Of a DNA stretch of 64,000 bases, positions 26,628 through 46,136 are shown piece after piece (position 1 is the stretch's first letter; every line of letters starts with the position of its first letter). The stretch lies in assembly GCF_004216695.1 (NCBI RefSeq), contig NZ_SGXC01000003.1, positions 310,001 through 374,000 of the forward strand, in the 5' to 3' direction. This DNA comes from Pigmentiphaga kullae. GTDB lineage: Bacteria; Pseudomonadota; Gammaproteobacteria; Burkholderiales; Burkholderiaceae_B. The notes beneath the pieces are model-generated. The model made no database searches and was not told the DNA's origin. It was given only the letters and a program-made list of their open reading frames with translations. A program made the position numbers and the translations under genes.

Positions 26628-27752
26628 TCAGCGCAGCAGCGACGCCGGATCCTCGCGGTGCAGCCGGCGGACCGCGAACAGTCCCGAGATCAGCGCGATC
26701 GCCATGACGAGGATGGCGCATATGGCTGCCACCATGGGCGTCATGCGTACCGGCACGTTCTGTCCGCGCGCGATGGTCAGCAGCACGACGCACAGGATGG
26801 CGGCCAGCGCGGTGCCGGTCACGCCCACGCCGAACGCCTGCTTGAGCACCACCGTGCGCAGCGACGAGGCGCTGACGCCCATGGCCTTGAGCGTGGCGTA
26901 GGCGCGCATGGAGCCGGCGATGGCGGCGATCAGGGTCTGGCTGGTGATGGCGGCGCCCGCCAGGAACACCACGCCGGCCAGGAACAGCACGCCGGCGCCG
27001 GCGCCCGTTTGCAGCAGCCAGTACAACTGCGTCTTCTTGGAAAATTCCTTGCTGCTCCAGACCTCGTAGGCGCCGAAGCTGCGCTGGTTCGCGATCCGTT
27101 CGCGCACCGCCTCGGCTTCCGACGGATTGCGCGCCTTGGCGACGAAGTAGGTCGGCAGGTCGCCTTCGTCCGGCGTGCTGATCAGCCGCGCGGTGTCGGA
27201 CGAGGCCAGCACGTTGGCGCCGTCCAGGGCGCGCAGGCCGCTGATGACGCCGATGACGCGCACGGGATGGCCGTTGAGCGTGGCCTGTCCGCCTTGCCGC
27301 GTGCCCAGCTTGTGCAGGTCGGCGCGGTCCACGACGATGGTGCCGATCTCGGCCAGGCGCTCGCGCAGATCGGGCGACAGCAGCCGCGAAAAGAGCATGC
27401 CGCCCGGCCGGACGTCCACGCCCGACACGGCCACGCTCATGCCGCCATGCACCTCGGGGCTGCGCCATTCGGCCGAACGCAGGTAGAAGGGCTCGACCGC
27501 CGCGATGCCGCGGTCCATGCGCAGGGGCATCTCGATGTCGGGGTTCAGCGGCAGGCCCTGGTCGATGCTTTGCGTGCCGGGCGAGCCTATCCAGATGTCG
27601 GCGTCCGACGCGGTGATGTAGACCGCCGCGTTGCCGAATATGCCCAGCACCAGGCCGGCCTGGGCCAGGAGCAGCAGGCCGGAGAAGGCCACCGCCACCA
27701 CCGCGGGCAGGAAGCGCGGCCATTCGTGGATGAGAGTCTTGCGTGCGAGCAT
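26628..27752 (-). CDS. ABC transporter permease, FtsX/DevC-like
   Basis: A 374-residue MacB/FtsX-type permease. One membrane helix near residues 15-40 is followed by a large periplasmic domain (about 45-255) and three helices near the C-terminus, the last ending RRLHREDPASLLR. This topology is that of tripartite exporters such as DevBCA. No ATPase or fusion protein lies next to it. It is one base downstream of the outer-membrane component gene, so both form a two-gene operon. The natural partners, an ABC ATPase and a membrane fusion lipoprotein, are at 44458-46136. Confidence 0.9.
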   Translation of the reverse strand: MLARKTLIHEWPRFLPAVVAVAFSGLLLLAQAGLVLGIFGNAAVYITASDADIWIGSPGTQSIDQGLPLNPDIEMPLRMDRGIAAVEPFYLRSAEWRSPEVHGGMSVAVSGVDVRPGGMLFSRLLSPDLRERLAEIGTIVVDRADLHKLGTRQGGQATLNGHPVRVIGVISGLRALDGANVLASSDTARLISTPDEGDLPTYFVAKARNPSEAEAVRERIANQRSFGAYEVWSSKEFSKKTQLYWLLQTGAGAGVLFLAGVVFLAGAAITSQTLIAAIAGSMRAYATLKAMGVSASSLRTVVLKQAFGVGVTGTALAAILCVVLLTIARGQNVPVRMTPMVAAICAILVMAIALISGLFAVRRLHREDPASLLR

Positions 27753-27753
27753 G

Positions 27754-29199
27754 TCAGTGACTCGAGGCGGCGGATGACCGTTCTTCGCCGCGCCAGGCCG
27801 GGGCGCCGCCCACGGCCTTGTGCAGCGAGATGAACGCGAGATCCTGCGCCAGCGTGGTGGCCGACAGCGCGAGTTGGGCCTGGATGCGGCGCGAGGCGAG
27901 GTCGGCGTTGTCGAATTCGCTCGACAGTTTCGAGGCCGTCAGCCGCCCGGCGTGGTCGGCGGCCCGGCCGATCGCTTGCAGCGCGCGTTCCTCGGCTTCG
28001 CGGCGCTGGCGGTACTGGTCGAGTTCGATCAGCGCGGACTCGGCTTCGGACCATCCTTCCAGCACCGCCTGGCGGTAGGCCAGCAGGGCGGCGTCGAGTT
28101 CGTCGCTGCGGGCATGCGCGGCGGCCTGCCGCTGGCCCCAGTCGAACAGCGGAATGTCGATCAGCGGCCCCAGCGAGAAGATCGTCTGGGTATAGGTGGG
28201 CGTGTTGCGCCGGTTGAAGTTGTTGGCGAAGTTGCTGGCCACCGTGAGCGAACCGCCTATGCCCAGGCGGGGATAGAGATCGGCCCGGGCGATGCCCAGC
28301 GCGCCGGCGGCATCCAGCACGCGGGCCTGGGCCATCTGGACGTCCGGGCGGGTGCGCAGCATGTCGGCGGGCGTGCTGGCGATGGCGGCCGGCACGGCGG
28401 GGTTTGCGGCCAGGGCCGGTTCGCGGCTCCAGGCCGGATCGGGCTCGTGGCGGCCCAGGAGCACGGCCAGCTTGAGCGCGCTTTGCCGCACGGCCATGCC
28501 GGGGTCGGCCAGCGCGGCCCGGGCCTGCTCCAGCGCGGCCTGGGTCCGTTCGACGTCCACGCGCGATGCCAGGCGCGTGCGTTCCCGTAACGAGACAAGC
28601 TCCACCTGGCGCTCTTGCAGAGTGACCGCTTCCTTCAGCAGGCGCTGCCTGAGCTGGGCGCTGCGCAGTTCGCGCCAGGCGCGTACGACTTCGGCGGCGA
28701 CGCTGACCCGCGCGCCCTGCAAAGTGGCGGCGGCCGCGTCCACGCTGGCGCGGGCCTGCCGCTCGGCGCCTTCGCCGCGCCCGAACAGGCCGAATTCCCA
28801 GGTGGCATCGAACCCGGCCTGGAAATACGAACTGCTGGCGTCGGCGGCGACGGCATCGCGCGTGCGGAAATTCAGGTTGGGCAGGTAGGGTGCGTTGGCC
28901 GCGTCATGCAGCTTGCGCGCGGCCTGCAGGCGGGCATGGGCTTCGGCGATGGTCAGGTTGCCGGCCAGGGCCTGCTCCACCAGCCCGTCGAGCTGCGGGT
29001 CGCCGTAGGCCTTCCACCATTCGGCGGGCGCTGGCGCGGCCGCGCCCCGCGAAGCGTTGTTCCATTGCGGGGGGACGTCCGCTTGCAGGTCCGGCGCCGG
29101 AACGCTCACGCACCCGGTCAGCGCTGCGGCTGCCAGGACCAGTGTCCACCGGAGGCCGGGGCGGAGGGGAAAGGACTGCGAAAAGCGGGAAAAGGGCAT
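27754..29199 (-). CDS. Outer-membrane efflux lipoprotein (TolC/NodT family)
   Basis: A 481-residue NodT-type outer-membrane factor. The signal peptide ends in a lipobox LTGC near residue 33. Two outer-membrane-efflux domains follow, with long heptad-rich helices (for example residues 70-140 and 310-380). The start MPFSRFSQSF at 29199 is the first ATG with a proper signal; longer frames upstream are not signal-like. Its stop is one base before the permease ATG. It is divergent from the class III aminotransferase across a 400-base gap, so it marks the left edge of the cluster. It provides the exit duct for the split exporter proposed here. Confidence 0.93.
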   Translation of the reverse strand: MPFSRFSQSFPLRPGLRWTLVLAAAALTGCVSVPAPDLQADVPPQWNNASRGAAAPAPAEWWKAYGDPQLDGLVEQALAGNLTIAEAHARLQAARKLHDAANAPYLPNLNFRTRDAVAADASSSYFQAGFDATWEFGLFGRGEGAERQARASVDAAAATLQGARVSVAAEVVRAWRELRSAQLRQRLLKEAVTLQERQVELVSLRERTRLASRVDVERTQAALEQARAALADPGMAVRQSALKLAVLLGRHEPDPAWSREPALAANPAVPAAIASTPADMLRTRPDVQMAQARVLDAAGALGIARADLYPRLGIGGSLTVASNFANNFNRRNTPTYTQTIFSLGPLIDIPLFDWGQRQAAAHARSDELDAALLAYRQAVLEGWSEAESALIELDQYRQRREAEERALQAIGRAADHAGRLTASKLSSEFDNADLASRRIQAQLALSATTLAQDLAFISLHKAVGGAPAWRGEERSSAASSH

Positions 29200-29599: not shown

Positions 29600-30976
29600 A
29601 TGAGCTCCGAATCCCAACTGCTTGCCGACGAAGCGCAATATTGCTCGTTCGGTGATACCGTCCATTACGTCAACCCGCCGAAGATCTTCGATCGCTGCGA
29701 AGGCAGCTACATGTACGATGCCCAGGGCACGCCGTACCTGGACCTGCAGATGTGGTACTCGGCCGTCAACTTCGGCTATGGCAACCAGCGCCTGAACAAC
29801 GTGCTCAAGAAGCAGCTGGACGTGCTGCCCCAGGTCGCCAGCCAGTACCTGCACCCGACCAAGATCGAACTGTCCAAGGTCATCGCGCAGGACGCCGAGC
29901 GCAAGTTCGGCTACAAGGGCCGCGTGCACTTCAACGTGGGCGGCTCGCAATCCGTCGAGGATTCGCTCAAGCTGGTGCGCAACGCCACGGAAGGCAAGAG
30001 CCTGATGTTCGCCTTCGAGGGCGGCTACCACGGCCGGACCCTGGGCGCCTCGGCCATCACCTCCAGCTACCGCTACCGCCGCCGCTACGGCCACTTCGGC
30101 GAGCGTGCCCACTTCGTGCCGTTCCCGTATCCGTTCCGCCGTCCGCGCGGCATGACGCCCGAGGAATACAGCGAACATTGCGTGGCCGGTTTCGCCCGCC
30201 TGTTCGAGACCGAATACAACGGCGTCTGGGATCCGAAGGTGGGGCAGGCCGAATACGCCGCGTTCTACGTCGAGGCCATCCAGGGTACCGGCGGCTACGT
30301 CGTGCCCCCGCCCGATTTCTTCAAGGGCCTGAAGAAGGTGCTGGACCAGTACGGCATCCTGCTGGTGGTCGATGAAATCCAGATGGGTTTCTATCGTACC
30401 GGCAAGCTCTGGGCCATCGAGCACTTCGGCGTCAAGCCCGACGTGCTGGTCTTCGGCAAGGCGCTCACGAACGGCCTGAATCCGCTGGCCGGCCTGTGGG
30501 CGCGCGAAGAACTCATCAACCCCACCGTGTTCCCGCCGGGATCGACCCACTCCACCTTCGCGTCCAATCCGCTCGGCACCGCCATCGGCCTGGAAACGAT
30601 GAAGATGCTGGCCGAGGTCGACTACGAGGCCATGGTGATGGCCAGCGGCAAGCACTTCCTGGAAGGCCTGAAGGACCTGCAGAAGCGCCATCGCGAGATC
30701 GGCGACGTCGACGGCCTGGGCCTGGCCCTGCGCGCCGAGATCTGCACCGAGGACGGCTTCACGCCCAACAAGGCGCTGCTGGACCGGATGGTCGACATCG
30801 GCCTGTCCGGCGACCTGGACTACAAGGGCAAGAAGATGGGCCTGGTCCTGGACGTCGGCGGCTACTACAAGAACGTCATCACGTTCGCGCCTTCGCTGCA
30901 CATCACGCCGGAAGAGATCGACCAGGGACTGGAACTGCTCGACCAGTTGCTGACTCGTGCAAAGAACGGCGGTTGA
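29600..30976 (+). CDS. Class III PLP-dependent aminotransferase
   Basis: A 458-residue fold-type I transaminase of the ornithine/GABA/acetylornithine group. The PLP lysine is K287 in LVFGKALTNG, and the aspartate that binds the pyridine nitrogen is in VVDEIQMGFYRTG. The FEGGYHGRTLG motif lies upstream. Family members move an omega-amino group from a diamine or omega-amino acid to 2-oxoglutarate. It heads the operon with the FemAB-like and ureohydrolase genes. The unusually long leader upstream is noted separately. A substrate derived from ornithine, lysine or a polyamine is likely, but not proven. Confidence 0.92.
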   Translation: MSSESQLLADEAQYCSFGDTVHYVNPPKIFDRCEGSYMYDAQGTPYLDLQMWYSAVNFGYGNQRLNNVLKKQLDVLPQVASQYLHPTKIELSKVIAQDAERKFGYKGRVHFNVGGSQSVEDSLKLVRNATEGKSLMFAFEGGYHGRTLGASAITSSYRYRRRYGHFGERAHFVPFPYPFRRPRGMTPEEYSEHCVAGFARLFETEYNGVWDPKVGQAEYAAFYVEAIQGTGGYVVPPPDFFKGLKKVLDQYGILLVVDEIQMGFYRTGKLWAIEHFGVKPDVLVFGKALTNGLNPLAGLWAREELINPTVFPPGSTHSTFASNPLGTAIGLETMKMLAEVDYEAMVMASGKHFLEGLKDLQKRHREIGDVDGLGLALRAEICTEDGFTPNKALLDRMVDIGLSGDLDYKGKKMGLVLDVGGYYKNVITFAPSLHITPEEIDQGLELLDQLLTRAKNGG

Positions 30977-32072
30977 GGTTGCCGGTCCGGGGGCGACCCC
31001 GGACTTCCTGCGGCCGTACCTGAACAGGTTGGAACCCGAGGGGCTGGTAGGCCATTTCCTGGCTTGCCCGCCCCAAGGCTTTTCTGCGTGGGTGACCGCC
31101 AGCGGCGGCCCGATGTTCCGTGCCCGGTTCGACCTGCTGACTACGGCCGACGACGGCGCCAAGCGCCTGGTGCGGCGCCTGCCGGGTTTTCGCTTCTGGA
31201 AGGGCCTGCTGCAGCCGCGCACCGCGTTCGTCGGTACGACCGTCTCGGAATACGCGCTGCTGGCCGCGGGCACGGATCCCGCGCGCCTGGCCGCGCAGTT
31301 GAAGGCCGAGTACGGCGGCCAGCAGCCGTTCCTGATCGTCAAGGACCTGCCGCAGGATTCGCCGCTGCTGAGCGCCGAGGAAAACGACTGCGCGGCGGCA
31401 TTGGCGCAGGCCTGCCAGGCCGAAGGCTTCGTGCTGGTGGAAGGCCAGGCGCTGGCCTATGTGCCCGTCGATTTCGCCAGCCTGGATGCCTATCTGGAAA
31501 GGGTGTCCTATTCGCGGCGCAAGAACATCCGCCGCAAGCTGCGCTCGCGCGCGGGGCTGGACATCGAGCGGGTCATGGCCGGCGATGCCCGGTTCGCGCG
31601 GCCCGAGGTGCTGCGCGAGTTCTACGCGCTGTACCGGAACGTCTACGACCAGAGCGAGATGCATTTCGACCTGCTGACCGAAGACTTCTTCCAGCGGGTG
31701 CTACAGGACGGCGACAGCGGCGGGATCATTTTCGTGTACCGCCGCGAAGGCCGGATGATCGGCTACAACATCTGTTTCGAGTGCGACGGCAACCTGGTCG
31801 ACAAGTACATCGGCTTCCAGTATCCCGACGCGCGCGACAACAACCTGTATTTCGTCAGTTGGATGGTCAATCTCGAATACGCGCTGGAGCGCGGCTTGCG
31901 CCACTACATCGCCGGCTGGACCGATCCCGAGGTGAAGTCCTACCTGGGCGCGTCGTTCACGTTCACGCGGCATGCGGTCTACATCCGCAATCCCTTGCTG
32001 CGGGCCGTGCTCAAGCGCTTCGCCGGGCGTTTCGAGGGCGACCGCACATGGAGCGAGGGCGACAAGCCGTGA
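30957..32072 (+). CDS. FemAB / GNAT-like acyltransferase
   Basis: A 371-residue protein of the GNAT superfamily with the two-domain look of FemAB-like transferases. The C-terminal half (about 170-350) has the catalytic-type segment GIIFVYRREGRMIGYNICFE and a GFQYPDARDNNLYF loop followed by a helix. A Lys/Arg-rich helix at about 185-200 (SYSRRKNIRRKLRSR) may bind a nucleic acid or acidic partner. GTG at 30957 overlaps the aminotransferase end by 20 bases. FemAB enzymes transfer aminoacyl groups, and plain GNAT enzymes use acetyl-CoA. I infer N-acylation or aminoacylation of the aminotransferase product or of the CphA-type polymer. Moderately sure of the fold. Confidence 0.75.
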   Translation: MQRTAVEVAGPGATPDFLRPYLNRLEPEGLVGHFLACPPQGFSAWVTASGGPMFRARFDLLTTADDGAKRLVRRLPGFRFWKGLLQPRTAFVGTTVSEYALLAAGTDPARLAAQLKAEYGGQQPFLIVKDLPQDSPLLSAEENDCAAALAQACQAEGFVLVEGQALAYVPVDFASLDAYLERVSYSRRKNIRRKLRSRAGLDIERVMAGDARFARPEVLREFYALYRNVYDQSEMHFDLLTEDFFQRVLQDGDSGGIIFVYRREGRMIGYNICFECDGNLVDKYIGFQYPDARDNNLYFVSWMVNLEYALERGLRHYIAGWTDPEVKSYLGASFTFTRHAVYIRNPLLRAVLKRFAGRFEGDRTWSEGDKP

Positions 32073-32944
32073 ATGCCGTTCCGCTGGTGCTCGATTTCGA
32101 CGATGCCTGCGGCAAGGTGGAAGGCGCCACGGTGCTGCCGCTGCAGTCCTGGCAGGAATCCGTGCGCTTCGGCTGCTCGCTGGCCACGTTCCGCGCGCTG
32201 CGGCGCGAGTTGGATGGAACCATCCCGGCGCAGCATGGCACGGTGCTGATGGGCAGCGGCGACTTCCACCACCTGAGCTGGCCCCTGATCGAGCGCATGC
32301 GCGCGCGCGGGCCTTTCCGCGTGGTGGTGTTCGACAATCATCCGGACAACATGCGCTATCTGTTCGGGATCCACTGCGGGTCGTGGGTGCGCAGGGTGGC
32401 CGCGCTGCCCTTCGTGTCGCACGTGCACGTGATCGGCATCACGTCAGGCGACGTGGGCTGGTCGCACAGCTGGGAAAACTATCTGCGTCCGCTGGCGGGC
32501 GGCAAGCTCAGCTACTGGTGCATGAACGTGGATGCCGGCTGGGCCCGGCTGCTGGGCCTGGGCGGCGCGGTGCGCAGCTTCGGCGGCCCGGATGCGCTGA
32601 TGGAGGCGGTGCTGCCCGTGCTGGGGGCCTCGTCCGAACCCACCTACGTCTCGATCGACAAGGATGTGTTCCACCCCGACGTGGCCCGCACCAACTGGGA
32701 CCAGGGCATCCTGCGCGAGGAGCACGTGGCCCGGGCGATCGGGGCGCTGTCGGGCCGCGTGATCGGCAGCGACATCACGGGCGAGGTCTCGCTGTACGAG
32801 TACCGCGCCTGGTGGAAACGGTGGCTGAGCGCCGCCGACGGCCAGGAGGCGCCTTCGGCGGAACTCCTGGCCCGCTGGCAGGCCCAGCAGCATGCGCTCA
32901 ATGCGCGACTGATTGCCCTGCTGGCTGCCGCATCGCCGCACTGA
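32069..32944 (+). CDS. Ureohydrolase (arginase/agmatinase) family protein
   Basis: A 291-residue arginase-fold protein. Manganese ligands fit the family: H67 in GSGDFHHLSW (like the GDHS block), D89, H91 and D93 in FDNHPDNM, and D197 and D199 in SIDKDVFHPD. Such enzymes cleave guanidino groups, acetylpolyamines or formiminoglutamate, or deacetylate polyamines. The metal set is complete but the surrounding residues differ from classical arginase, so the substrate is open. GTG 32069 overlaps the FemAB-like stop (GTGA), so it is coupled. Its 3' end overlaps the convergent cphA by 47 bases. It could act on arginine or on the beta-Asp-Arg product of cyanophycin. Confidence 0.82.
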   Translation: MNAVPLVLDFDDACGKVEGATVLPLQSWQESVRFGCSLATFRALRRELDGTIPAQHGTVLMGSGDFHHLSWPLIERMRARGPFRVVVFDNHPDNMRYLFGIHCGSWVRRVAALPFVSHVHVIGITSGDVGWSHSWENYLRPLAGGKLSYWCMNVDAGWARLLGLGGAVRSFGGPDALMEAVLPVLGASSEPTYVSIDKDVFHPDVARTNWDQGILREEHVARAIGALSGRVIGSDITGEVSLYEYRAWWKRWLSAADGQEAPSAELLARWQAQQHALNARLIALLAAASPH

Positions 32945-35519: not shown

Positions 35520-35547
35520 GATGGGTTTCCTGTGCGTTTCCCAGGCT

Positions 35548-37719
35548 TCAGGCCGTGGCGGCCGCGGGGGCCGGCATGCCGTGGGTTTCGATCCCGGCGC
35601 GGATGCAATCCTGCGGCAGGTCCAGCGCCCAGCCCGCGGCCACGGCGGCCAGGACGCTTTCGATCGGCAGGCCCGGCTGTCCGGCCAGGCAGGGCACGGA
35701 CACGAGGGGAGCCAAGAGGGTTTCGTTCGCGCCATGGGCCAGCACGATGGCGCCGTCGCGTACGAAGACCGCGCGCTTGCCGGCGGCCCGGTGTTCGGCG
35801 ATGCGCGGCAGCTTGCCGTCGCGCGCGAAGAACATGACGTCGCCGTCGCACAGCCGGGCCATGTCGGCGACCAGTTCGTCGGCGGCATTGAGCACGGCGC
35901 AGCCGCTGGGCAGCACGACGTCGACCTGGGTGCGCAGCACGTTGAAGATCTGCTGCGGTTCCACGATGGACAGGTCGGGGTGCGTCTGCGCGGGATCGAG
36001 GTCGGTCACGACGCCGACCTGGCAGCGGTCGTAGGCCAGGCCCTGCGTCAGGATGGCGCGGGCGCCGGTCTCGATCGCGGCCGCTTCCATCATGGGGTTC
36101 ATCAGCGCGCGCTGCACGGCGTTCCAGTCCGCGGGGGCGCGATCGACCTGCCGGTGGTCGAAGTACAGGCCCTGGCTGGACGCCGTGGCGACGCGGCGGC
36201 CCGACAGCCGCAGGAATTGGCCGACCAGGTGGACCACGCCGGTCATGCCGTGGCTGCCGGACACGCCCACCAGCGGGATGCGGCCTTCGCCGCCGTTGGG
36301 GAACAGATGATCGACGATGGCGCGGCCCACGGGGCGGGGCTTGCCGTCGGCGGGTTTCAGGTGCATCAGCAGGCCGGGGCCGGCATTGACCTCGACGATG
36401 GCGCCGCCCTGTTCCTCGAGCGGCCGCGAAATGTCCTCGACCACCAGGTCCACGCCGGCGATGTCCAGGCCGACGATGCGCGCGGCGAGCCGTACGTGCG
36501 CCGCGACCGAGGGGTGGACCTCGTCGGTCACGTCGAAGGCGACGTTGCCGTTGCGCTGGATCAGGACTTCCTCGCCGGCGGGCGGGATGGAGTCGCCGTC
36601 ATAGCCCTGGCGTTCGAGTTCGATGCGGGCGGCGGAGTCCAGCGCGACCAGGTTCAGCGGATGCTCCTCGGTGTTGCCGCGGCGCGGGTCCGAGTTGAGC
36701 TGGCTGCCGATCAGCTGCTGGATCGTCGAGCGGCCGTCGCCGATGACCGAGGCGGTCTTGCCGCGCGCCGCCGCCACCATCCGGTCGCCCACCACCAGCA
36801 GGCGGTGTTCGTTGCCGGGCACGCAGCGCTCGACGATCACGCCGCTGCCTTCGCCGCTGGCCACGCCGAACGCGGTCTCGATGGCCTCGCGCGTGCGCAG
36901 GTCCAGGAACACGCCGCGGCCATGGTTACCGTCGCTGGGCTTGACCACCACCGGCAGGCCGATTTCCTGCGCGGCTTCCCACGCGTCTTCCTTGCTTTCC
37001 ACCGCGCGGCCCTGGGGCACGGGCACGCCGCAGGCCTGCAGCAGGCTCTTGGTCAGGTCCTTGTCGCAGGCGATGCCTTCCGCCACGGCGCTGGTGCGGT
37101 CGGTCTCGGCGGTCCAGATGCGGTGCTGCGCGGCGCCGTAGCCGAACTGCACCAGGTTGCCCTGGTTGAGGCGGATGTAGGGAATGCGGCGGTCCTCGGC
37201 GGCCTGCACGATGCTGGCGGTGCTGGGGCCCAGCCAGTGTTCGTTGACGAGGTCGCGCAGGGCCTCGATGGCCGCGGGCACGTCGTAGGGCCGGTCTTCG
37301 ATGGCGGCCATGACGAGGTCGCGCGCGGTGTGGAGCGCGGCGCGCGTGACCTCTTCCTGGTAGGCGCTGACGATCACGCGGTAGACGCCGCGCGTGGACG
37401 TCTCGCGCGCCTTGCCGAAGCCGCCCGGCAGCCCGGCCAGGTTCTGCAGTTCCAGCGTGACGTGTTCCAGGATGTGGCCCGGCCAGGTGCCCTCGCGAAC
37501 GCGGCGCAGGAAGCCGCCGCGTTCGTCGTAGCTGCACCGGTGCTCGATCAGCGTCGGCAGCCAGGCCTCCAGCCGTTCGTAGAAGCCCGGAATCAGGTTG
37601 GACGGGAAGTCCTCGAGTTCCCCGATGTCCACCCAGGCCTCGAGGACGGGCGGATAAGTCCACATGCTGGGTCCGCGCAGGGACAGCACATCGAGGAATT
37701 CAATGTGTTTGCGTTTCAT
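35548..37719 (-). CDS. Shortened cyanophycin synthetase homologue (CphA'/CphA2-like)
   Basis: A 723-residue CphA homologue, about 150 residues shorter than its neighbour. The N-terminal and ATP-grasp domains are intact (VVVKPSDGNHGRG). The Mur-type P-loop is degenerate: GVSGSHGMTGVV replaces GTNGKTT around residue 485, losing the key lysine. The C-terminal Mur ligase domain is missing. This is the pattern of CphA2-type enzymes that polymerise beta-aspartyl-arginine dipeptide with one ATP site. The frame is unbroken, so it is not a pseudogene. The start MKRKHIEFLDVLSLRGPS lies beyond a 368-base regulatory gap. Non-cyanobacterial genomes with a second 'cphA-prime' are known. Confidence 0.85.
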   Translation of the reverse strand: MKRKHIEFLDVLSLRGPSMWTYPPVLEAWVDIGELEDFPSNLIPGFYERLEAWLPTLIEHRCSYDERGGFLRRVREGTWPGHILEHVTLELQNLAGLPGGFGKARETSTRGVYRVIVSAYQEEVTRAALHTARDLVMAAIEDRPYDVPAAIEALRDLVNEHWLGPSTASIVQAAEDRRIPYIRLNQGNLVQFGYGAAQHRIWTAETDRTSAVAEGIACDKDLTKSLLQACGVPVPQGRAVESKEDAWEAAQEIGLPVVVKPSDGNHGRGVFLDLRTREAIETAFGVASGEGSGVIVERCVPGNEHRLLVVGDRMVAAARGKTASVIGDGRSTIQQLIGSQLNSDPRRGNTEEHPLNLVALDSAARIELERQGYDGDSIPPAGEEVLIQRNGNVAFDVTDEVHPSVAAHVRLAARIVGLDIAGVDLVVEDISRPLEEQGGAIVEVNAGPGLLMHLKPADGKPRPVGRAIVDHLFPNGGEGRIPLVGVSGSHGMTGVVHLVGQFLRLSGRRVATASSQGLYFDHRQVDRAPADWNAVQRALMNPMMEAAAIETGARAILTQGLAYDRCQVGVVTDLDPAQTHPDLSIVEPQQIFNVLRTQVDVVLPSGCAVLNAADELVADMARLCDGDVMFFARDGKLPRIAEHRAAGKRAVFVRDGAIVLAHGANETLLAPLVSVPCLAGQPGLPIESVLAAVAAGWALDLPQDCIRAGIETHGMPAPAAATA

Positions 37720-38007: not shown

Positions 38008-38087
38008 ACTTACGTGAGGCTGACATATTTCCATGAATTAGAAATAGTTACAAATACTATGTTGCTTATTTGGGGCACTGCCCGCCG

Positions 38088-40364
38088 ATGACTGCCGCGT
38101 CTCATCCGTTGTCCTCCCTGCCCGATGCCTGGCGTGGCCAGGCCGCTCCGCCGCTGGCCGAAGGCGAAACCGTCTGCGCCTGGCTGGAGCTCGATCTCGA
38201 TACGGAACTGCGCTATGCCCGGGGCGCGCTGGTGCTGACCGAGACCCGGCTGCTGGCGGCCTCGGCCGACGCGCCGGGATGGCGCGACTGGCCGCTGGGC
38301 GAGGGAATGCGGCTGGCGCTGTCCGACCACGCCGGCGTCGTCGCGGTCGAGCTGGTGGATGCCCGGGCGCGGCTGGCGCTGTGGCGCACGACCATGGCCC
38401 ACCACGCCGGCGCGGTCCGACTGGCCGACCAGTTCGAGCGCCAACTGGCCGCGCTGGCGCAGGGCGGCGTGGCGGCCCGCCTGGCGCCGGCCTGCCCGCG
38501 CTGCCATGCGCCGCTGCCGGAAGGCGAGCAGGACTGCCCGGCCTGCGAGGCCGAAGCGCCGGTCGAGAAGCGGGGCTGGGCGCTGCTGCGGCTGCGCCGT
38601 TTCGCCCGCCCTTATCGCGGCAGGCTGCTGCTGGGCTTCATCCTGACGGTCCTGTCCACCGCCGCGACGCTGGTTCCGCCCTACCTGACCATGCCGCTGA
38701 TGGACGACGTGCTGATCCCGTTCCAGAACGGCAAGCCCATCGACTACGACCTGGCCGCGCTCTACCTGTCCGGGCTGCTGGGCGCGGCGCTGGTGGCCTG
38801 GGTGCTGGGCTGGTCGCGCACCTACATCCTGGCCTGGGTCAGCGAGCGCATCGGCGCCGACCTGCGCACCAGCGCCTATGAACACCTGCAGCAACTGTCG
38901 CTGGAATACTTCGGCGGCAAGCGCACGGGCGACCTCATGGCGCGCATCGGCAACGAGACCGACCGCATCTGCGTCTTCCTGTCGCTGCACCTGCTGGACT
39001 TCGCCACCGATGTCCTGATGATCCTGATGACGGCCGGCATCCTGGTTTCCATCGACCCGTGGCTGGCGCTGGTCACGCTGCTGCCGCTGCCCTTCATCGC
39101 CTGGCTGATCCACCTCGTGCGCGACAAACTGCGTCACGGGTTCGAAAAGGTGGACCGCAACTGGGCCGAGATCACCAACGTGCTGGCCGACACCATTCCG
39201 GGCATCCGGGTGGTCAAGGCCTTCGCCCAGGAAAAGCGCGAGGTGGCGCGCTTCCGAGAGGCCAACAACCACAACCTCGCGGTCAACGACAAGGTCAACA
39301 CCACGTGGTCGATGTTCTCGCCCACGGTCATCCTGCTGACCGAGGTCGGCCTGCTGGTGGTCTGGATATTCGGCATCTGGCAGATCGCCAACCACCACAT
39401 CTCGGTGGGCGTGCTGGCGGCGTTCCTGGCCTACATCAGCCGTTTCTACCTGCGGCTGGACTCCATGAGCCGCATCGTCTCGGTCACGCAGAAGGCGGCG
39501 GCGGGCGCCAAGCGCATCTTCGACATCCTGGACCGCGTCTCCAGCGTGCCCGAGCCGGCCCATCCGGTTCCCCTGGGCCGGGTGGAGGGCCGCATCCAGA
39601 TCCGCGAGGCCACCTTCCGCTACGGCACGCGCGCCGTGCTGCGCGGCATAGACCTGGACATCCAGCCGGGCGAGATGATCGGCCTGGTGGGGCACAGCGG
39701 CTCGGGCAAGAGCACGCTGGTCAACCTGATCTGCCGCTTCTACGACGTGGCGCAGGGATCGATCAAGGTGGATGGCGTCGACATCCGCGCGCTGTCCATT
39801 CCCGGGTACCGGCGCAACATCGGCGTGGTGCTGCAAGAGCCCTTCCTGTTCTTCGGGACGGTGGCCGAGAACATCGCCTACGGCAAGCCCGAGGCCACGC
39901 GCGAGGAAATCGTGGCCGCCGCGCGCGCGGCCCATGCGCACGAGTTCATCCTGCGCCTGCCGCACGGCTACGATTCGCTGGTGGGCGAGCGCGGCCAGGC
40001 CCTGTCGGGCGGCGAGCGCCAGCGCATTTCCATCGCCCGCGCGCTGCTGATCGACCCGCGCATCCTGATCCTGGACGAGGCCACGTCCTCGGTCGACACC
40101 TCGACCGAACAAGAGATCCAGAAGGCGCTCGACAACCTGGTGCGGGGGCGCACCACCATCGCCGTGGCGCACCGGCTCAGCACCCTGCGACGGGCCGACC
40201 GGCTGGTGGTGCTGGACCGCGGCCGCATCGTCGAGCAGGGCCGCCACGAAGACCTGATCGCCAAGGGCGGCGCCTACTATCGCCTGCACCAGGCGCAGAC
40301 CCGGCAGCTCGATCCTCCCGGCAGCGACAGCACCTGGGACGGCGACGACGAGGAGCAGGCATGA
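38088..40364 (+). CDS. ABC transporter (fused permease-ATPase) with N-terminal zinc-ribbon-like segment
   Basis: A 758-residue half-transporter. The first 160 residues contain no membrane helix; they include a beta-rich region and a zinc-ribbon-like motif CPRC...CPAC (C136, C139, C150, C153). Six helices follow (about 180-460) and then an ABC-ATPase with Walker A GHSGSGKST near 535, signature LSGGERQR and Walker B ILILDEATS. ABC exporters of this type next to a DUF1854 gene and cyanophycin synthetase are, to my knowledge, annotated as cyanophycin-metabolism-associated. The extra N-terminal part is unusual for exporters. It probably moves a cyanophycin-related compound; direction and substrate are unknown. 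Its stop overlaps the next ATG. Confidence 0.88.
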   Translation: MTAASHPLSSLPDAWRGQAAPPLAEGETVCAWLELDLDTELRYARGALVLTETRLLAASADAPGWRDWPLGEGMRLALSDHAGVVAVELVDARARLALWRTTMAHHAGAVRLADQFERQLAALAQGGVAARLAPACPRCHAPLPEGEQDCPACEAEAPVEKRGWALLRLRRFARPYRGRLLLGFILTVLSTAATLVPPYLTMPLMDDVLIPFQNGKPIDYDLAALYLSGLLGAALVAWVLGWSRTYILAWVSERIGADLRTSAYEHLQQLSLEYFGGKRTGDLMARIGNETDRICVFLSLHLLDFATDVLMILMTAGILVSIDPWLALVTLLPLPFIAWLIHLVRDKLRHGFEKVDRNWAEITNVLADTIPGIRVVKAFAQEKREVARFREANNHNLAVNDKVNTTWSMFSPTVILLTEVGLLVVWIFGIWQIANHHISVGVLAAFLAYISRFYLRLDSMSRIVSVTQKAAAGAKRIFDILDRVSSVPEPAHPVPLGRVEGRIQIREATFRYGTRAVLRGIDLDIQPGEMIGLVGHSGSGKSTLVNLICRFYDVAQGSIKVDGVDIRALSIPGYRRNIGVVLQEPFLFFGTVAENIAYGKPEATREEIVAAARAAHAHEFILRLPHGYDSLVGERGQALSGGERQRISIARALLIDPRILILDEATSSVDTSTEQEIQKALDNLVRGRTTIAVAHRLSTLRRADRLVVLDRGRIVEQGRHEDLIAKGGAYYRLHQAQTRQLDPPGSDSTWDGDDEEQA

Positions 40365-40853: not shown

Positions 40854-42074
40854 TCAGGACGCCAGGACCCGGCAGATCGCCTCGAACCGCTCGTCGTCCA
40901 GCCAGTGGCTGTTGGTGATCGACAGCGCGCGCGCAGCGAAATCGCGGGCGTGGGGCACCGGCGCATCGGCGACGATGGGGCGCAGGTACTCGTAGTCGGG
41001 CAGGGTGTGCACGAATAGCGGGCCCACGCCCAGTCCCGCGCCCCACAGCCGGTCCAGCGCCCGCTGCCGCGTTTGCGCGTCAGGCAGCAGCAGCATGAAG
41101 AATGGCCAGACACCGTCACCGCCGGCGGTGTCCTGCATGACGCGTACCCCGGGCAGGTCTTGCAGCCGCTCCAGGCGCCGCCGGGCGCGTTCCCGGGCGT
41201 CGCCCAGGAACGCCGGCAGGCGGCGGGCCGCCCGCGCGCCTACGCCGCGGCGCCAGCGGCCGACCCGGTGGATGGGAATGTCGAGCGAGAAATCGTCGCC
41301 GGCGGCCCGGACGGGATCGCCGGCGCGCAAGGCCGCGCGCTGTGGGTTGCCGTAGGCCAGGCGCATGCCGCGCGGTCCGTACAGCAGCGCGTAGGCCAGC
41401 AGTTCCAGGCTGCGGCGCGCCTCCCATCCCGGGCGGCTGCCGACGGTGCGCGCGCTGGTGGCGCGCAATTCGTCGCGCAGCGCGGGATCGCGCGCCAGCA
41501 GCAGGCCGCCTTCGTAGATGCTAAGGCCCTTGCCCGCGGCCAGGCTGAAGAAGCCGATGTCGCCGTCCTGGCCCACGCTGCGCCCGTTGCGGCGGGCGCC
41601 CAGCGCCTGTGCCGCGTCTTCGATGACGGCCGCGCCGCAGCGGGCCGCGCAGCGCAGCGCGGCGCCGGTGTCGGCCACGCGGCCGGCCAGGTGGGTGACC
41701 ACGATGGCCAGCGTATCGTCGTCGCAGGCCGCCTCGAGCGCGGCCGGGTCCAGGTCGAAGTGCCCGGGGGCCAGATCGCACAGCTTCAGGCGCAGTCCGC
41801 AATGGTGGACCGCCAGCGCGACCAGCGGGCAGGTGTAGGCGGGCAGGATGACGGTCTTGCGCGGGCTGCGCCGGGCCAGCGTCAGCAGGGAGACGACCAG
41901 GCTGGAGGTGCCGGAGCATTCCAGTTGCAGGGCCGGGACGTCCAGCCAGGACGCGACGTGCGCCTCCAGGTCCGCCGGGCCGCCGGGCAGGAGGTCGTTC
42001 CAGCGCAGCGGCAGGCCCGCCGTGGGCGGGATGTCGCGCCCGTGGGCGCCGGCCGCGAGCCTAGGCGTCGGCAC
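40854..42074 (-). CDS. DegT/DnrJ/EryC1/StrS-family aminotransferase
   Basis: A 406-residue PLP enzyme of the sugar-aminotransferase family. The Schiff-base lysine is K182 in FFSLAAGKGLSIYEGG, and the upstream VIEDAAQALGAR block carries the PLP-binding aspartate. Relatives such as ArnB or PglE aminate nucleotide sugars; others act on different ketones. The start GTG at 42074 overlaps the upstream small EamA gene by 14 bases. It is the last gene of the seven-gene leftward operon that begins with the ABC ATPase. With two EamA-type proteins upstream the set recalls ArnB with ArnE/ArnF, but no other Arn gene is present. Confidence 0.85.
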   Translation of the reverse strand: MPTPRLAAGAHGRDIPPTAGLPLRWNDLLPGGPADLEAHVASWLDVPALQLECSGTSSLVVSLLTLARRSPRKTVILPAYTCPLVALAVHHCGLRLKLCDLAPGHFDLDPAALEAACDDDTLAIVVTHLAGRVADTGAALRCAARCGAAVIEDAAQALGARRNGRSVGQDGDIGFFSLAAGKGLSIYEGGLLLARDPALRDELRATSARTVGSRPGWEARRSLELLAYALLYGPRGMRLAYGNPQRAALRAGDPVRAAGDDFSLDIPIHRVGRWRRGVGARAARRLPAFLGDARERARRRLERLQDLPGVRVMQDTAGGDGVWPFFMLLLPDAQTRQRALDRLWGAGLGVGPLFVHTLPDYEYLRPIVADAPVPHARDFAARALSITNSHWLDDERFEAICRVLAS

Positions 42075-42471
42075 GGCCGGACTCCGGGTGGAGGCGCCGC
42101 GATTCGCTGGCCTCGCCGAAGGCCAGGCAGACGATGCCGCCGATGATCAGCAGCGCGCCCAGCATCTGGTTGGCGGTGATGTGTTCGTCGAACAGCCAGA
42201 CCGACACCAGCATCACGGTCACGACTTCGAGATGGGAGGCGGCGAAGGCCGGGCCGATGGGCGCGCGCTTGAGCAGCGACATCCAGGTGAAGAAGGCGCC
42301 GATGTAGCCGACGAAAGCGCCGTAGATCCACGGCTGGCCGAATACCCGCATGAGCCAGTCGAGGTCGGCCGCCAGCGGCATCGCATGGTTGGCGGCGTAC
42401 TTGAAGCTGATCTGCGCCAGCGTGTCGAAGGCCATCAGCAGGCCGAAGCCGATCAGATAGAAGCGGCGCAT
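42061..42471 (-). CDS. Small EamA/SMR-type membrane protein (second of pair)
   Basis: A 136-residue four-helix membrane protein. Helices lie at about 6-24, 46-66, 73-93 and 100-121, with EamA-type motifs such as SLLKRAPIGPAFAASHLEVV and FDEHITANQMLGALLIIGGI. This is half the size of usual EamA transporters, so it should work as a dimer. Its start forms TGATG with the stop of the other small EamA gene (ATG 42471; a GTG at 42474 is an alternative). The pair therefore resembles ArnE/ArnF-like flippase subunits. The cargo is unknown. Confidence 0.85.
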   Translation of the reverse strand: MRRFYLIGFGLLMAFDTLAQISFKYAANHAMPLAADLDWLMRVFGQPWIYGAFVGYIGAFFTWMSLLKRAPIGPAFAASHLEVVTVMLVSVWLFDEHITANQMLGALLIIGGIVCLAFGEASESRRLHPESGRADA

Positions 42472-42827
42472 CACGGTATCCCCACGACCGCCACGCCGGC
42501 GGCGATCAGCGCGATGCCGGCCACCCGCAGCGGCGTCAGGTGTTCGTTGAACAGGAAGCGGCCGGCGATCATGATGGCGACGATGTTGATCGAGCCCAGC
42601 AGCACGCCCTCGGACAGCGGCACAAGCGACAGGAAGGCCAGCCAGACGACGAACTCCAGGATATAGCAGGCGATGCCTATCCAGATCCAGGGGCGCCGCG
42701 CCAGCTCGCGCCAGTAACGCAGGCCGCTGCCTTCGGCAGGCGTGGTGGCGGCCGCCTTGAACGCCAGCTGGCCGCCGGTGTCGACCAGCACGTTCAGCGT
42801 CCAGAGCAGGGCGACGAGCGGCGTCAT
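42471..42827 (-). CDS. Small EamA/SMR-type membrane protein (first of pair)
   Basis: A 118-residue membrane protein with four hydrophobic segments (about 3-25, 45-67, 72-90, 96-117) and the EamA pattern LVPLSEGVLLGSINIVAIMI plus LFNEHLTPLRVAGIALIAAG. Its ATG overlaps the hydrolase stop by four bases, and its stop overlaps the next small EamA gene by one base, so the two halves are made together. A heteromeric flippase or exporter is likely. The first helix sequence includes a QLAFKAA stretch as in other half-size drug/metabolite transporters. Confidence 0.85.
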   Translation of the reverse strand: MTPLVALLWTLNVLVDTGGQLAFKAAATTPAEGSGLRYWRELARRPWIWIGIACYILEFVVWLAFLSLVPLSEGVLLGSINIVAIMIAGRFLFNEHLTPLRVAGIALIAAGVAVVGIP

Positions 42828-43666
42828 CGCGCCGCCTGCGGCGCGGCGCCTTCGCGCTGCGCGGCGATGTCGGAGAAGAACTCGGCCGATTCGCGTATGA
42901 CTTCGCGGCGTTCGCGGTCCACCGTGATCATGTGATAGCTGTCGTGCAGCAGCACCAGCTTGGCGGGCCCGCCGACGCGCTCCATGACCAGATGGGCGTT
43001 GCCGACGCTGGCCATGTCGTCCTCGGCGGCGTGCATGACCAGGCAGGGCGCGCGCACCTGGCGCAACTGGCGCCGCACCGTGGCCGACAGGTCGATGAGC
43101 TCGGCCAGGGAGGGCCAGGGGTTGCCGGGCAGGCCGGCGTCGGCGCTGTCGCCGCCCAGCATGCTGGAGGACACCGCGGCGCGCAGCCGTTCGTCCTTCA
43201 GGCCGTAGGGCGGTTCTTCGTCGAAGGTCTTGTCCTGGAACAGGTTCAGGCGCTTGAACCAGGGCAGCAGGAACGACAGGCGCCAGTACCAGGGAATGTT
43301 CCAGCCATCGTAGCGGAAGGTGGCGCCGTAGACGCCGACGCCGGCGATGTCGTCGGGCCGGTCGGCCGCGGCCTTCAGGGCCAGCACCGCGCCCATCGAC
43401 AGGCCGGCGACGAAGCAGTGGTCGACGTCGCGGCGCAGGCGGTCGACGCCCTCCAGCACGCTGGCGTACCAATCCTTCCAGCCGGTGCGGACGAGGTCGT
43501 CGACGTCGCCGCAGTGGCCCGCCAGCTGCATGCCGTAGACCGTGAAGCCGGCCCGGTGCAGGCCCTTGCCGACGGTACGCATTTCATTGGGGGTGCCGGT
43601 CAGGCCATGAATGAGCAGCACGCCCGCGCGGCCGCCTTCGAAATAGAAATCCGCGGATTTGATCAT
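42824..43666 (-). CDS. Alpha/beta hydrolase (carboxylesterase/lipase-like)
   Basis: A 280-residue hydrolase. The nucleophile elbow is GLSMG with S90. An oxyanion-type HGLTGTPNEMR block lies at 20-30, the acid is probably in HAAEDDMAS, and the catalytic histidine in LHDSYHMITVD. This resembles bacterial carboxylesterase Est30-type or monoacylglycerol lipase-like enzymes. There is no signal peptide, so it is cytosolic. It is the fourth gene of the leftward operon, 26 bases after the HAD gene, and overlaps the EamA gene by four bases. It could remove an acyl group from an intermediate. Confidence 0.88.
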   Translation of the reverse strand: MIKSADFYFEGGRAGVLLIHGLTGTPNEMRTVGKGLHRAGFTVYGMQLAGHCGDVDDLVRTGWKDWYASVLEGVDRLRRDVDHCFVAGLSMGAVLALKAAADRPDDIAGVGVYGATFRYDGWNIPWYWRLSFLLPWFKRLNLFQDKTFDEEPPYGLKDERLRAAVSSSMLGGDSADAGLPGNPWPSLAELIDLSATVRRQLRQVRAPCLVMHAAEDDMASVGNAHLVMERVGGPAKLVLLHDSYHMITVDRERREVIRESAEFFSDIAAQREGAAPQAAR

Positions 43667-43692: not shown

Positions 43693-44448
43693 TCAGGCGG
43701 TGCTGGCTGCCGCCGGCGCGATGGTGAAGCCGCGCGGGGGTTGCGCGATGGCGTGCAACTGGCCTTTCAGGATGAAGTCGAGCGCATTGCGGGCCTGGTC
43801 GAAGCCGGCGATGGGAATGTGTACCAGGCCGTGTTCGCGGCAGTAGTCGATCAGGCGGTGCTTGGCCAGCACGAAGTCGACCGTGCCCGACACGCAGAAG
43901 TCCGAGGCGCCGTCGCCCACGTACAGGATCTTCTCGTGCAGGCCGCGCACGCCCGAACCGTACGAGCACTTGCAGGTGCCGCTGGCCTTGCGGCAGGCGG
44001 CGTCGGCGTAGGGGAAGGTCAGTTGCCAGCTGCGCGGCCCGGCCTGTTCGAAGCGGTTGGCCACCACGGGCAGGTCCGCCAGGCCGTGGCGTTCCATGAT
44101 GGCCGCGATCACGCCGGCCAGGCCGTCGCTGACGATGTGCACCGGCGTGCCGAGGCGGCGCGCCTGCGCCACGAATTCGGGGAAGGCCGGATCGATCTCG
44201 ATGTTCGCCACCAGGGCGTCCAGTTCTTCCTTGCTGGCGTCCAGCAGCGCGATCTGCTTGGCCATGCACTCGCGCGAGCCGATTTCTCCGCGTTCCCAGG
44301 CGTCTTCCAGCTCCTGCCAGCCCGGCCGGCCGAAATGTTCAAGCAGGGTATCGGTGACATCCTGCTTGGAAATGGTGCCGTCGAAGTCGCACAACACGAT
44401 CCATTCGGATCCGGGTTGTTCATCGGCGGCGTACTGACTGAGCAACAT
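43693..44448 (-). CDS. HAD-superfamily phosphatase, MtnX/SerB-like
   Basis: A 251-residue HAD-IB phosphatase. Motif I is DFDGTIS (nucleophile D21, acid D23), motif II is the HIVSDG serine, and motif III/IV is the lysine and ILYVGDGASDFC. Between them is a cysteine-rich cap part (ACRKASGTCKCSYG) seen in MtnX-like enzymes. Substrates of the group are phosphorylated small metabolites such as phosphoserine or diketo-methylthiopentane phosphate. No other methionine-salvage gene is nearby, so a different role in this cluster is likely. It is nine bases after the fusion-protein stop, in the same operon. Confidence 0.88.
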   Translation of the reverse strand: MLLSQYAADEQPGSEWIVLCDFDGTISKQDVTDTLLEHFGRPGWQELEDAWERGEIGSRECMAKQIALLDASKEELDALVANIEIDPAFPEFVAQARRLGTPVHIVSDGLAGVIAAIMERHGLADLPVVANRFEQAGPRSWQLTFPYADAACRKASGTCKCSYGSGVRGLHEKILYVGDGASDFCVSGTVDFVLAKHRLIDYCREHGLVHIPIAGFDQARNALDFILKGQLHAIAQPPRGFTIAPAAASTA

Positions 44449-44457
44449 GGCAAGCCT

Positions 44458-45360
44458 TTAGGGAAGGAAGCGGACCAGCACGCGCTGGCCGACACGCAGC
44501 TTTTCGGGGTTTTCGATCGACAGCAGGCTTTCGACGCCGCGGCGGCTGATCCGCTCCTGCGGGTCGTCGCCGGGCGACATGACCTGGAACACGCTGCCGA
44601 TGCGTTCCAGGCGTGCCGGGATGGGGGTGCCGCCGGGGGCGGACTCTTCCACGATCTCTGCCTGCATGCCGGTTTTCAGCGCCGCGACGTAGGCTTCGTT
44701 CACCTCGGCGCGGACGATCAGGCGCCGCTTGGGCAGCAGGCGCAGCATTTCGGTCTGGGCGGTGACCGCGTTGCCGACCTGCACCTCCAGGCCGACGATC
44801 TCGCCATCCACGGGCGCGCGGACCTGCTGGCGCTCCAGCGTCCATTGCGCGGCGCGCAATTTCTGGCGCGCGACGTCCACCGCCGCCTGGGCCGCCGTGG
44901 CCTCTGCCTCGGCCTGGGCCACGGCGTTGCGCGCGTCGTCGGCTGCCTGGCCATCGATGGCGCCGCCGGCGGCGGCCTCGGCCAGCCGCTGGGCGCGCTG
45001 CTTCAGCCCGGGCAGGCGGCTGCGCAGCACGCGTTCCTGAGCCTGCGTCTGGCGCAATTCGGCATCGGCCGCATCGACCGCCAGCTGCGCCGCCGCCGGA
45101 TTGAACTCGATCAGCGCCTGGCCCTTCTTGACCTGGTCGCCGTCGCGCACCGCCACCCGGGCAACGGTGCCGTCCACGGCCGCGCCCACGCGCACCAGGC
45201 CGCCTTCGACATCGATGCGCCCGCGCGCGACGGCGGCGTAGGGCGGCTGGTCGGCCGCCGGGGCTTCCGCCTGTTGCTGGCGGGAACACGACGCCAGCAG
45301 CACGCCGCCTGTCAGTACGGCCAGGATTCCAAGGCGAAAGGTAGTGAAAAGCTTAGGCAC
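44458..45360 (-). CDS. Membrane fusion lipoprotein (HlyD/DevB-like)
   Basis: A 300-residue periplasmic adaptor. A signal peptide with lipobox LASC gives acylated C25. The barrel-sandwich parts (GTVARVAVRDGDQVKKGQAL and IRAPVDGEIVGLEVQVG-like) flank an alpha-helical coiled hairpin of about residues 90-170. It starts at GTG 45360, 14 bases after the ATPase stop. As a DevB-type adaptor it must link an FtsX-type permease to a TolC channel. Neither gene is present at this end; both lie at 26628-29199. Confidence 0.9.
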   Translation of the reverse strand: MPKLFTTFRLGILAVLTGGVLLASCSRQQQAEAPAADQPPYAAVARGRIDVEGGLVRVGAAVDGTVARVAVRDGDQVKKGQALIEFNPAAAQLAVDAADAELRQTQAQERVLRSRLPGLKQRAQRLAEAAAGGAIDGQAADDARNAVAQAEAEATAAQAAVDVARQKLRAAQWTLERQQVRAPVDGEIVGLEVQVGNAVTAQTEMLRLLPKRRLIVRAEVNEAYVAALKTGMQAEIVEESAPGGTPIPARLERIGSVFQVMSPGDDPQERISRRGVESLLSIENPEKLRVGQRVLVRFLP

Positions 45361-45374
45361 GAGCTCGAGAGTTC

Positions 45375-46136
45375 CTAGGTTTCGGCGACCAGCGCACCGG
45401 TGCGCCTGTCGTCCAGGATGCGTCCATCTTCCATGGTCAGGACGCGGTCGGCATGGCTGATCAGGCGCGGATCATGGCTGACGCACAACACCGTGGCGCC
45501 GTGGCGCTTGGCGATGCGGTGCAGGATGTCGATGACTTTCATGCCGTTGCCGGCGTCCAGCGCGCTGGTCGGCTCGTCGGCAAAGAGCAGTTCGGGTTCC
45601 TTGGCGAGCGCGCGGGCGATGGCCACGCGCTGCTGTTCGCCGCCCGACAGGCCCGACGGCCGCTGGCGGGCGCGCCCGCTCATGCCCACTTCCTCGAGGG
45701 CGGCCCAGGCCTGTTCCTCGGCCCGCGGCTTGGACAGGCCCACGTAGCGCAGGGGCAGGACGACCTGTTCGACAGCCGTCAGCGCGGGAAAGAGGTTGAA
45801 GCCTTGGAAGACGAAGCCGGTATGCATCAGCCGGAAACGTTCAAGCTCTTGAAGCTGAAGCAGGCCAAGATCCTGGCCCAGGGCGCGCACCATGCCGGCA
45901 TCCGGACGCAGCATGCCGCTGAGTATGGCCAACAGGGTGCTTTTGCCGCAGCCCGACGGCCCAGAAATCAATGTCAGTTCGCCGGGCATGATGCTAACCG
46001 ACAAATCTCGCAAAATGCGCTCGCGAACATTACCGGATAGAAAGGATTTGCTGAGCGACTCGGCGACGAGACTCGGTGTGCTACCAGGGGGATTCCCCGA
46101 TGTGCGGCCTGTGGCCTGGGGCTCGGTCGCCCGCAT
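45375..46136 (-). CDS. ABC transporter ATPase, LolD/MacB-like (DevA type)
   Basis: A 253-residue ATPase. Walker A SGPSGCGKST, signature LSGGEQQR, and Walker B LLFADEPTSALD are intact, with the H-loop in VSHDPRLISHADR. It matches the ATPases of tripartite FtsX-permease exporters. The chosen ATG 46136 follows a GGAGACC; a TTG 30 bases earlier also leaves the frame open. It begins the seven-gene leftward operon and starts 20 bases after the U-run of the MFS terminator. Its permease partner is proposed to be the one at 26628. Confidence 0.92.
   Translation of the reverse strand: MRATEPQATGRTSGNPPGSTPSLVAESLSKSFLSGNVRERILRDLSVSIMPGELTLISGPSGCGKSTLLAILSGMLRPDAGMVRALGQDLGLLQLQELERFRLMHTGFVFQGFNLFPALTAVEQVVLPLRYVGLSKPRAEEQAWAALEEVGMSGRARQRPSGLSGGEQQRVAIARALAKEPELLFADEPTSALDAGNGMKVIDILHRIAKRHGATVLCVSHDPRLISHADRVLTMEDGRILDDRRTGALVAET

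Follow-up and report, generated by a model that had tools for sequence, protein, structure and literature searches.

A putative MacB-type exporter with its own predicted biosynthetic genes appears permuted around a cyanophycin locus in Pigmentiphaga kullae

A 64,000-nucleotide stretch of the Pigmentiphaga kullae genome (contig NZ_SGXC01000003.1, positions 310,001 to 374,000; hereafter the window, with positions counted from its first letter) contains a gene block with a permease and an outer-membrane channel encoded at one end and an ATPase and a periplasmic adaptor encoded at the other. On sequence evidence, these two pairs are the two halves of one MacB/DevBCA-like tripartite exporter. The explanation that best covers the whole block, and that we consider likely, is a single exporter that has a biosynthetic set of its own, is independent of cyanophycin, and has a gene order permuted around a cyanophycin (cph) locus. 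The four predicted exporter genes are the following.

26628..27752, minus strand: MacB/DevC-type (type VII) ATP-binding cassette (ABC) permease without an ATPase domain (Pfam FtsX, 4.1e-10)
27754..29154, minus strand: TolC/NodT-type outer-membrane channel with lipobox LTGC (Pfam OEP, 3.9e-31)
44458..45360, minus strand: HlyD-type periplasmic adaptor with lipobox LASC (HlyD_3, 6.3e-17)
45375..46136, minus strand: exporter ATPase of the DevA/LolD type (ABC_tran, 4.1e-34)

These domain matches agree with the layout given in an earlier note on this DNA, with the permease and channel at 26.6 to 29.2 kb and the ATPase and adaptor at 44.5 to 46.1 kb. No ATPase or adaptor gene lies beside the permease-channel pair (26628-29154). 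The reading frame of the channel gene remains open to 29418, and 29154 is its likely start.

The earlier note had also proposed that the halves form one exporter, and this is borne out by their shared distribution and by the contiguity of the parts in relatives. Among 268 genomes sampled from the family, the permease (E <= 1e-30), the ATPase (E <= 1e-62), and a class III aminotransferase encoded between the halves (E <= 1e-150) are each found in 16, and the 16 genomes are identical. The E-value limits for the ATPase and the aminotransferase were set post hoc, once the gap between orthologues and other family members was visible. Neighborhoods were examined in the 15 family genomes besides the window's own, in 80 named loci (the best 80 of 289 relatives, to which all counts out of 80 refer; many are cut at contig or stretch ends), and in 8 further permease-carrying genomes from a sample of 320 genomes of the order. 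Below, G labels denote genomes of the family and order samples, and L labels denote loci. In all 95 entries outside the window's lineage, the permease and ATPase genes are adjacent, with a gap of at most 157 bp; because five genomes were met twice (G178/L124, G183/L096, G397/L086, G434/L077, and G466/L138), these represent about 90 distinct genomes. Left out of this count, and of the permease tree described below, were L117, whose contig ends before the ATPase gene, and seven stretches fetched for other reasons. Relatives have the channel, permease, ATPase, and adaptor genes contiguous. Across 329 genomes sampled from the phylum, the permease family (E <= 1e-60) occurs in 12, of which 11 have the contiguous arrangement (three are already among the 95) and the twelfth is the window's own genome.

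Within the window and seven close genus-mates (8/8), the permease and ATPase genes are separated by 17.6 to 17.8 kb. The interleaved layout is thus kept in all eight genomes of this lineage, the window included, and all 14 genes tested are under purifying selection (ratio of nonsynonymous to synonymous substitution rates, dN/dS, of 0.05 to 0.32 for the window against three genus-mates, with the alpha/beta hydrolase gene left out). Together, these observations argue that the arrangement is not due to chance.

By its domain and motif matches, the exporter is of the MacB/type VII tripartite kind, with an FtsX/MacB-like permease, a cognate ATPase, an HlyD-type adaptor, and a TolC-type channel all present; the four proteins would assemble into one pump. 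The permease scores above the cut-off for FtsX and just below it for MacB_PCD (26.9 bits; cut-off, 27), has four hydrophobic stretches by hydrophobicity analysis, and contains no Walker A by a motif search; its matches in a search of solved structures were weak. Walker A, signature, Walker B, and H-loop are all present in the ATPase. Of the known systems, DevBCA-HgdD, the heterocyst glycolipid exporter of Anabaena, resembles the window system in having separate permease, ATPase, and adaptor proteins and a TolC-type channel. The best NCBIfam matches of the window permease and ATPase are in fact the DevC and DevA models, yet both fall far below the curated cut-offs (TIGR01185, 76.1 bits against 290.35; TIGR02982, 209.5 bits against 295.8), so these proteins are not equivalogs. 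The window system differs from DevBCA in having its channel gene in the cluster, in its aminotransferase, GNAT, arginase-family, HAD, and EamA partners, and in its two operons. The available portions of two papers report a lipid-type cargo for DevBCA (PMC8277102, PMC5985334), whereas such a cargo is only inferred for the window pump. MacAB-TolC is likewise tripartite with a MacB-type permease, to which the FtsX and near-cut-off MacB_PCD matches correspond, but its ATPase is fused to the permease, whereas the window ATPase is a separate gene.

Between the two halves lie eight genes that we assign to the biosynthetic set of the exporter.

29600..30976, plus strand: class III pyridoxal phosphate-dependent aminotransferase, or racemase-like protein (Pfam Aminotran_3, 1.1e-74)
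30957..32072, plus strand: FemAB-like GNAT acyltransferase (Pfam FemAB_like, 2.6e-15; Acetyltransf_6, 1.2e-10)
32069..32944, plus strand: arginase-family protein (PF00491), its start overlapping the end of the FemAB-like gene
40854..42074, minus strand: DegT-family aminotransferase (Pfam, 1.9e-38)
42061..42471, minus strand: EamA2, a small EamA transporter half (Pfam EamA, 2.5e-09)
42471..42800, minus strand: EamA1, a small EamA/ArnE-like transporter half (Pfam EamA, 6.9e-07; ArnE, 5.1e-07)
42824..43666, minus strand: alpha/beta hydrolase (Hydrolase_4) with nucleophile GLSMG
43693..44448, minus strand: HAD-IB phosphatase, MtnX/phosphoserine-phosphatase-like (Pfam HAD, 2.1e-12; MtnX structure 2fea, 1.2e-17)

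The right-hand run of seven genes (ATPase, adaptor, HAD, hydrolase, EamA, EamA, DegT) has the order and single strand that the earlier note described. That note did not include the arginase-family gene (32069-32944), whose product matches PF00491 at 37.6 bits (cut-off, 22). Three motifs in this protein, GSGDxHH, DNHPD, and DKD, are invariant in all 17 aligned rows, and we take them to be the arginase metal motifs; its search against solved structures returned nine chains named as designed or cell-surface proteins, with matches that span about 20 residues. The closest solved relative of the class III aminotransferase is an alanine/serine racemase (9wqz, 3.8e-59), and the enzyme is 78 to 81% identical in eight more distant family genomes.

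Comparison with relatives indicates that the exporter belongs with the class III aminotransferase, the FemAB-like GNAT, the arginase-family protein, the HAD phosphatase, the hydrolase, the EamA pair, and often DegT. The common layout begins with a two-component system and continues with channel, permease, ATPase, adaptor, HAD, hydrolase, EamA1, EamA2, and DegT, to which the aminotransferase, GNAT, and arginase-family genes are convergent. When gene order was scored for 12 listed genes in 90 entries (intervening genes allowed), 17 had exactly this order, and 10 more had it minus DegT. The order does vary; in Dyella the aminotransferase and HAD genes are divergent to the channel gene, and in Uliginosibacterium the aminotransferase gene lies inside. 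The two-component system lies upstream of the cluster in 8/8 contiguous family clusters. An in-frame query for the alpha/beta hydrolase found it in all 15 family cluster genomes besides the window's and in 44/80 loci. The aminotransferase and HAD genes are within 400 bp of each other in 21 of the 60 entries that have both, which suggests that the two enzymes act in consecutive steps.

The pump and the enzymes seem to keep company even when they are unlinked, as an aminotransferase orthologue (76 to 81% identity) was found in 5/5 genomes tested, namely, two of Stenotrophomonas maltophilia, a Pseudomonas, and a Luteibacter, in which the exporter stands alone, and a Dyella, in which the genes are linked. 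In S. maltophilia D457 (L118, L183), a same-strand run of hydrolase, EamA1, EamA2, DegT, HAD, aminotransferase, GNAT, and arginase genes lies about 354 kb from the exporter, with two-component-like genes upstream of these eight. The D457 exporter is itself flanked by a transposase gene and an integrase gene. Most or all of the cluster is plasmid-borne in Agrobacterium salinitolerans (pDG3-1h, L164), where the set is contiguous except for DegT, and in Xanthomonas sacchari (L161), where the permease and channel matches are each in two pieces. Plasmids are a possible route by which the cluster spreads.

The middle of the block is occupied by three genes of the cyanophycin locus.

32898..35564, minus strand: cphA1 cyanophycin synthetase (PRK14016, 1244.9 bits, cut-off 877; TIGR02068, 970 bits, cut-off 850)
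35548..37704, minus strand: shortened cyanophycin synthetase paralogue (PRK14016, 1035.2 bits, above cut-off)
38070..40364, plus strand: cyanophycin metabolism-associated ABC transporter (NCBIfam equivalog NF052233, 1365.9 bits, cut-off 880)

The second synthetase, presumably cphA2'-like, scores 710.1 bits against TIGR02068, below the cut-off of 850, and its PRK14016 match ends at position 714 of 871, short of the C terminus. The identity of the ABC gene (38070-40364) as an NF052233-type transporter was also absent from the earlier note, which had taken everything between the exporter halves as one cyanophycin-type cluster with a single exported product. That proposal stands for the HAD, hydrolase, EamA pair, DegT, class III aminotransferase, and FemAB-like genes, which go with the exporter, but not for the cph genes. 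In the family sample, cphA1 (E <= 1e-150) is present in 166/268 genomes and the NF052233-type transporter (E <= 1e-200) in 165/268. Genomes with the exporter have cphA1 in 12 of 16 cases and those without it in 154 of 252 (Fisher P = 0.30); in other words, 154 of the 166 cphA1 genomes lack the exporter, which marks the locus as a separate module despite its place in mid-block. No cphA1 match was found at this threshold in four exporter genomes (G189, G061, G183, and G178, the last 89% complete), and in four more the exporter and cphA1 are far apart (about 96 kb in G193 and megabases in G012, G026, and G104). None of the 80 loci of other genera has a cphA gene in the stretch read. The neighborhood comparison thus found exporter halves and their partners without cph, an outcome that the earlier note had named as contrary to its proposal.

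Synteny within the genus points the same way. In G192 and G193, the cph locus is at the same chromosomal site as in the window: spermidine-synthase-like and RcnB-like genes lie toward cphA1, MFS and histidine-kinase genes lie at the opposite end, and no exporter genes were found around the locus within the 40 kb read. Given this synteny, the lack of association, and the exporter genomes without cphA1, the cph locus appears independent of the exporter, and cyanophycin was rejected as the cargo. In the simplest reading of the gene orders, an independent cph locus occupied the site and ended up with the exporter cluster on either side of it. With respect to the cph product itself, the window genome has no match to cyanophycinase (TIGR02069) at E <= 1e-3, so storage may not be the fate of this product; processing or export may take its place, in a departure from the classical use. 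The available portions of PMC10206079 describe cphA1 as clustering with cyanophycinase and dipeptidases, and the main text of that paper contains no word starting with "export."

Along one strand, the genes of the window block run in the order ATPase, adaptor, HAD, hydrolase, EamA1, EamA2, DegT, the cph block, arginase, GNAT, aminotransferase, channel, and permease. With the cph block set aside, they follow the common order except that the channel and permease have moved from the front to the end, strands unchanged. As judged from gene order, the cluster is circularly permuted relative to the common order and wraps around cph, and this permutation is what cuts the exporter into two transcription units. 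Repeats of at least 22 nucleotides in 25700-47000 come from the cphA paralogue pair, from sequence that ABC ATPases share, and from chance pairings. None falls at the four boundaries, and mobile-element scars at the junctions were rejected for that reason. Trees of the permease (103 rows) and of the aminotransferase (60 rows, only those with an aminotransferase longer than 400 residues) were built by a quick method with support from the Shimodaira-Hasegawa-like approximate likelihood ratio test (SH-aLRT) only, and were rooted at the midpoint, so that the root is not an inferred one. Both place the window lineage apart from G189 and G193 of the same genus; long branches were flagged in the permease tree and none in the aminotransferase tree. 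This placement fits a separate acquisition by the window lineage from an unsampled donor.

One terminator-like site lies at the right-hand edge of the block.

46169..46183, minus strand: hairpin resembling a terminator, between the MFS and ATPase genes (weak; six such sites were found in the region, with 8.0 expected by chance)

The promoter scan of the region was uninformative (1 found against 1.4 expected). Beyond the block, positions 46311-54455 hold MFS, LysR, TctC-like binding protein, reductase, and Rieske oxygenase genes and a 2CSK_N histidine kinase gene; VanA-type Rieske oxygenases lie on both sides (24022-25050 and 51086-52294).

The genes that accompany the exporter elsewhere bear on what it might carry. 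A gene homologous to the cyclopropane-synthase-family gene of Rhizobium occurs in 11/80 loci, in ten of them beside the arginase-family gene as judged by coordinates; the eleventh has no arginase-family match in the locus. An acyl carrier protein and a ketosynthase are encoded beside the GNAT in 6/80 loci (Rhodanobacter) and on the Xanthomonas plasmid, a desaturase gene and a cyclopropane-synthase-family gene lie inside the operon of a Rhizobium plasmid, and an MBOAT acyltransferase gene is near the genes on a Bartonella plasmid. These fatty-acyl genes, taken with the aminotransferase, HAD phosphatase, and FemAB-like GNAT, suggest that the product would be a lipid-like acylated amine or amino alcohol.

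A possible mechanism is that cytoplasmic enzymes build a small acylated amine, with the HAD phosphatase and the aminotransferase probably acting in consecutive steps and the GNAT acylating the amine. According to the available portions of PMC5985334 and PMC8277102, MacB-type pumps operate from the periplasm and do not move their cargo through the inner membrane, and DevBCA is a glycolipid exporter. The candidate for the inner-membrane step is the EamA1/EamA2 pair; the MacB-type pump would then drive the product from the periplasm through adaptor and channel, either as far as the outer membrane or to the cell exterior.

A precedent for such a pair exists in the Arn pathway, where ArnE and ArnF form the aminoarabinose flippase and ArnB is a DegT protein. 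The likeness lies in the short EamA pair beside a DegT aminotransferase; EamA1 matches ArnE and ArnF at 29.9 and 29.4 bits, below the cut-offs of 92 and 99. The difference is that no ArnA, ArnC, ArnD, or ArnT is among the genes identified in the window cluster.

Several observations weigh against a single exporter with a biosynthetic set and a lipid-like product. Fatty-acid genes were not found in the cluster of the window itself, and the window ATPase and permease score below the curated DevA and DevC cut-offs. In 18/80 loci (13 of them Stenotrophomonas; some contigs are short), the stretch read shows the exporter but neither aminotransferase nor HAD, hydrolase, or EamA genes, and the exporter there may serve other substrates. 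Conversely, a Rhizobium plasmid and a Bartonella plasmid carry the aminotransferase and some partners, and the 25 to 29 kb read there gave no exporter match (chromosomes were not searched). Four order-level relatives, with permeases 39 to 47% identical, have permease, ATPase, and adaptor genes and no channel or biosynthetic match within 20 kb. Finally, the response regulator of the relatives lacks a close orthologue in the window genome, the best match there being 43% identical.

Some of these points would favor a general drug or envelope-stress pump whose biosynthetic neighbors are there by chance. Such a pump would account for the 18 loci with the exporter alone, and the two-component system beside all 8 contiguous family clusters would suit it, as would the drug export by MacB relatives described in the available portions of PMC5985334. 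We nevertheless think this unlikely, as the aminotransferase accompanies the exporter in 16/16 family genomes and in the 5/5 further genomes tested, in four of which it is unlinked within the stretch; in our judgement, such company is rare for drug-pump genes. It is more improbable still that a cyanophycin-type product is exported by one functional cluster made up of the exporter, the cph genes, and the transaminases. The interleaving conserved in 8/8 lineage genomes speaks for such a cluster, the arginase-family protein could in principle handle arginine, and the missing cyanophycinase match (E <= 1e-3) leaves room for a cph product that is no plain store. These points are outweighed by the absence of an association in the family (12/16 against 154/252), by the four exporter genomes without a cphA1 match, by the 0/80 outside loci with cphA in the stretch, and by cph standing alone at the same site in G192 and G193; moreover, the cph locus has its own NF052233 transporter.

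We give hardly any credence to the idea that the halves now work with different partners, the permease and channel with another ATPase and adaptor and the ATPase and adaptor with another permease. The 17.6-kb distance and the two operons would allow it, and the genome contains 136 ATPase-family matches at E <= 1e-3, but the permease matches only once in its own genome (E <= 0.001), the halves co-occur in the same 16/268 genomes, both are under purifying selection, and they are adjacent in other lineages. Separate partner sets were rejected on the single permease match, the co-occurrence, and the adjacency elsewhere.

In sum, the single exporter with its own biosynthetic set unites two orphan half-exporters in one system, whose gene set is defined and can be tested, for example, in Comamonas testosteroni or Delftia acidovorans. 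Searches by family names, which left subscription papers largely uncovered, found no description of the cluster or its biosynthetic set in the literature. On balance, we lean toward a widespread and undescribed proteobacterial system for an envelope or secreted aminolipid. Its core enzymes would be the aminotransferase, the FemAB-like GNAT, the arginase-family enzyme, and the HAD phosphatase, with an EamA heterodimer serving the inner membrane and a dedicated MacB-type tripartite pump serving the outer membrane. The genes would stay in the same genomes even where they are not linked, and one Alcaligenaceae lineage would have gained them separately, in an order permuted around cph. The block would illustrate clearly how a gene cluster can be permuted around a locus already in place, and it cautions that the neighbors of cph genes should not be read as cyanophycin genes. 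If the proposed cargo is correct, these results would extend lipid-type cargo for DevBCA-like pumps beyond the cyanobacteria, and the genes for the inner-membrane step would lie next to those of the pump.

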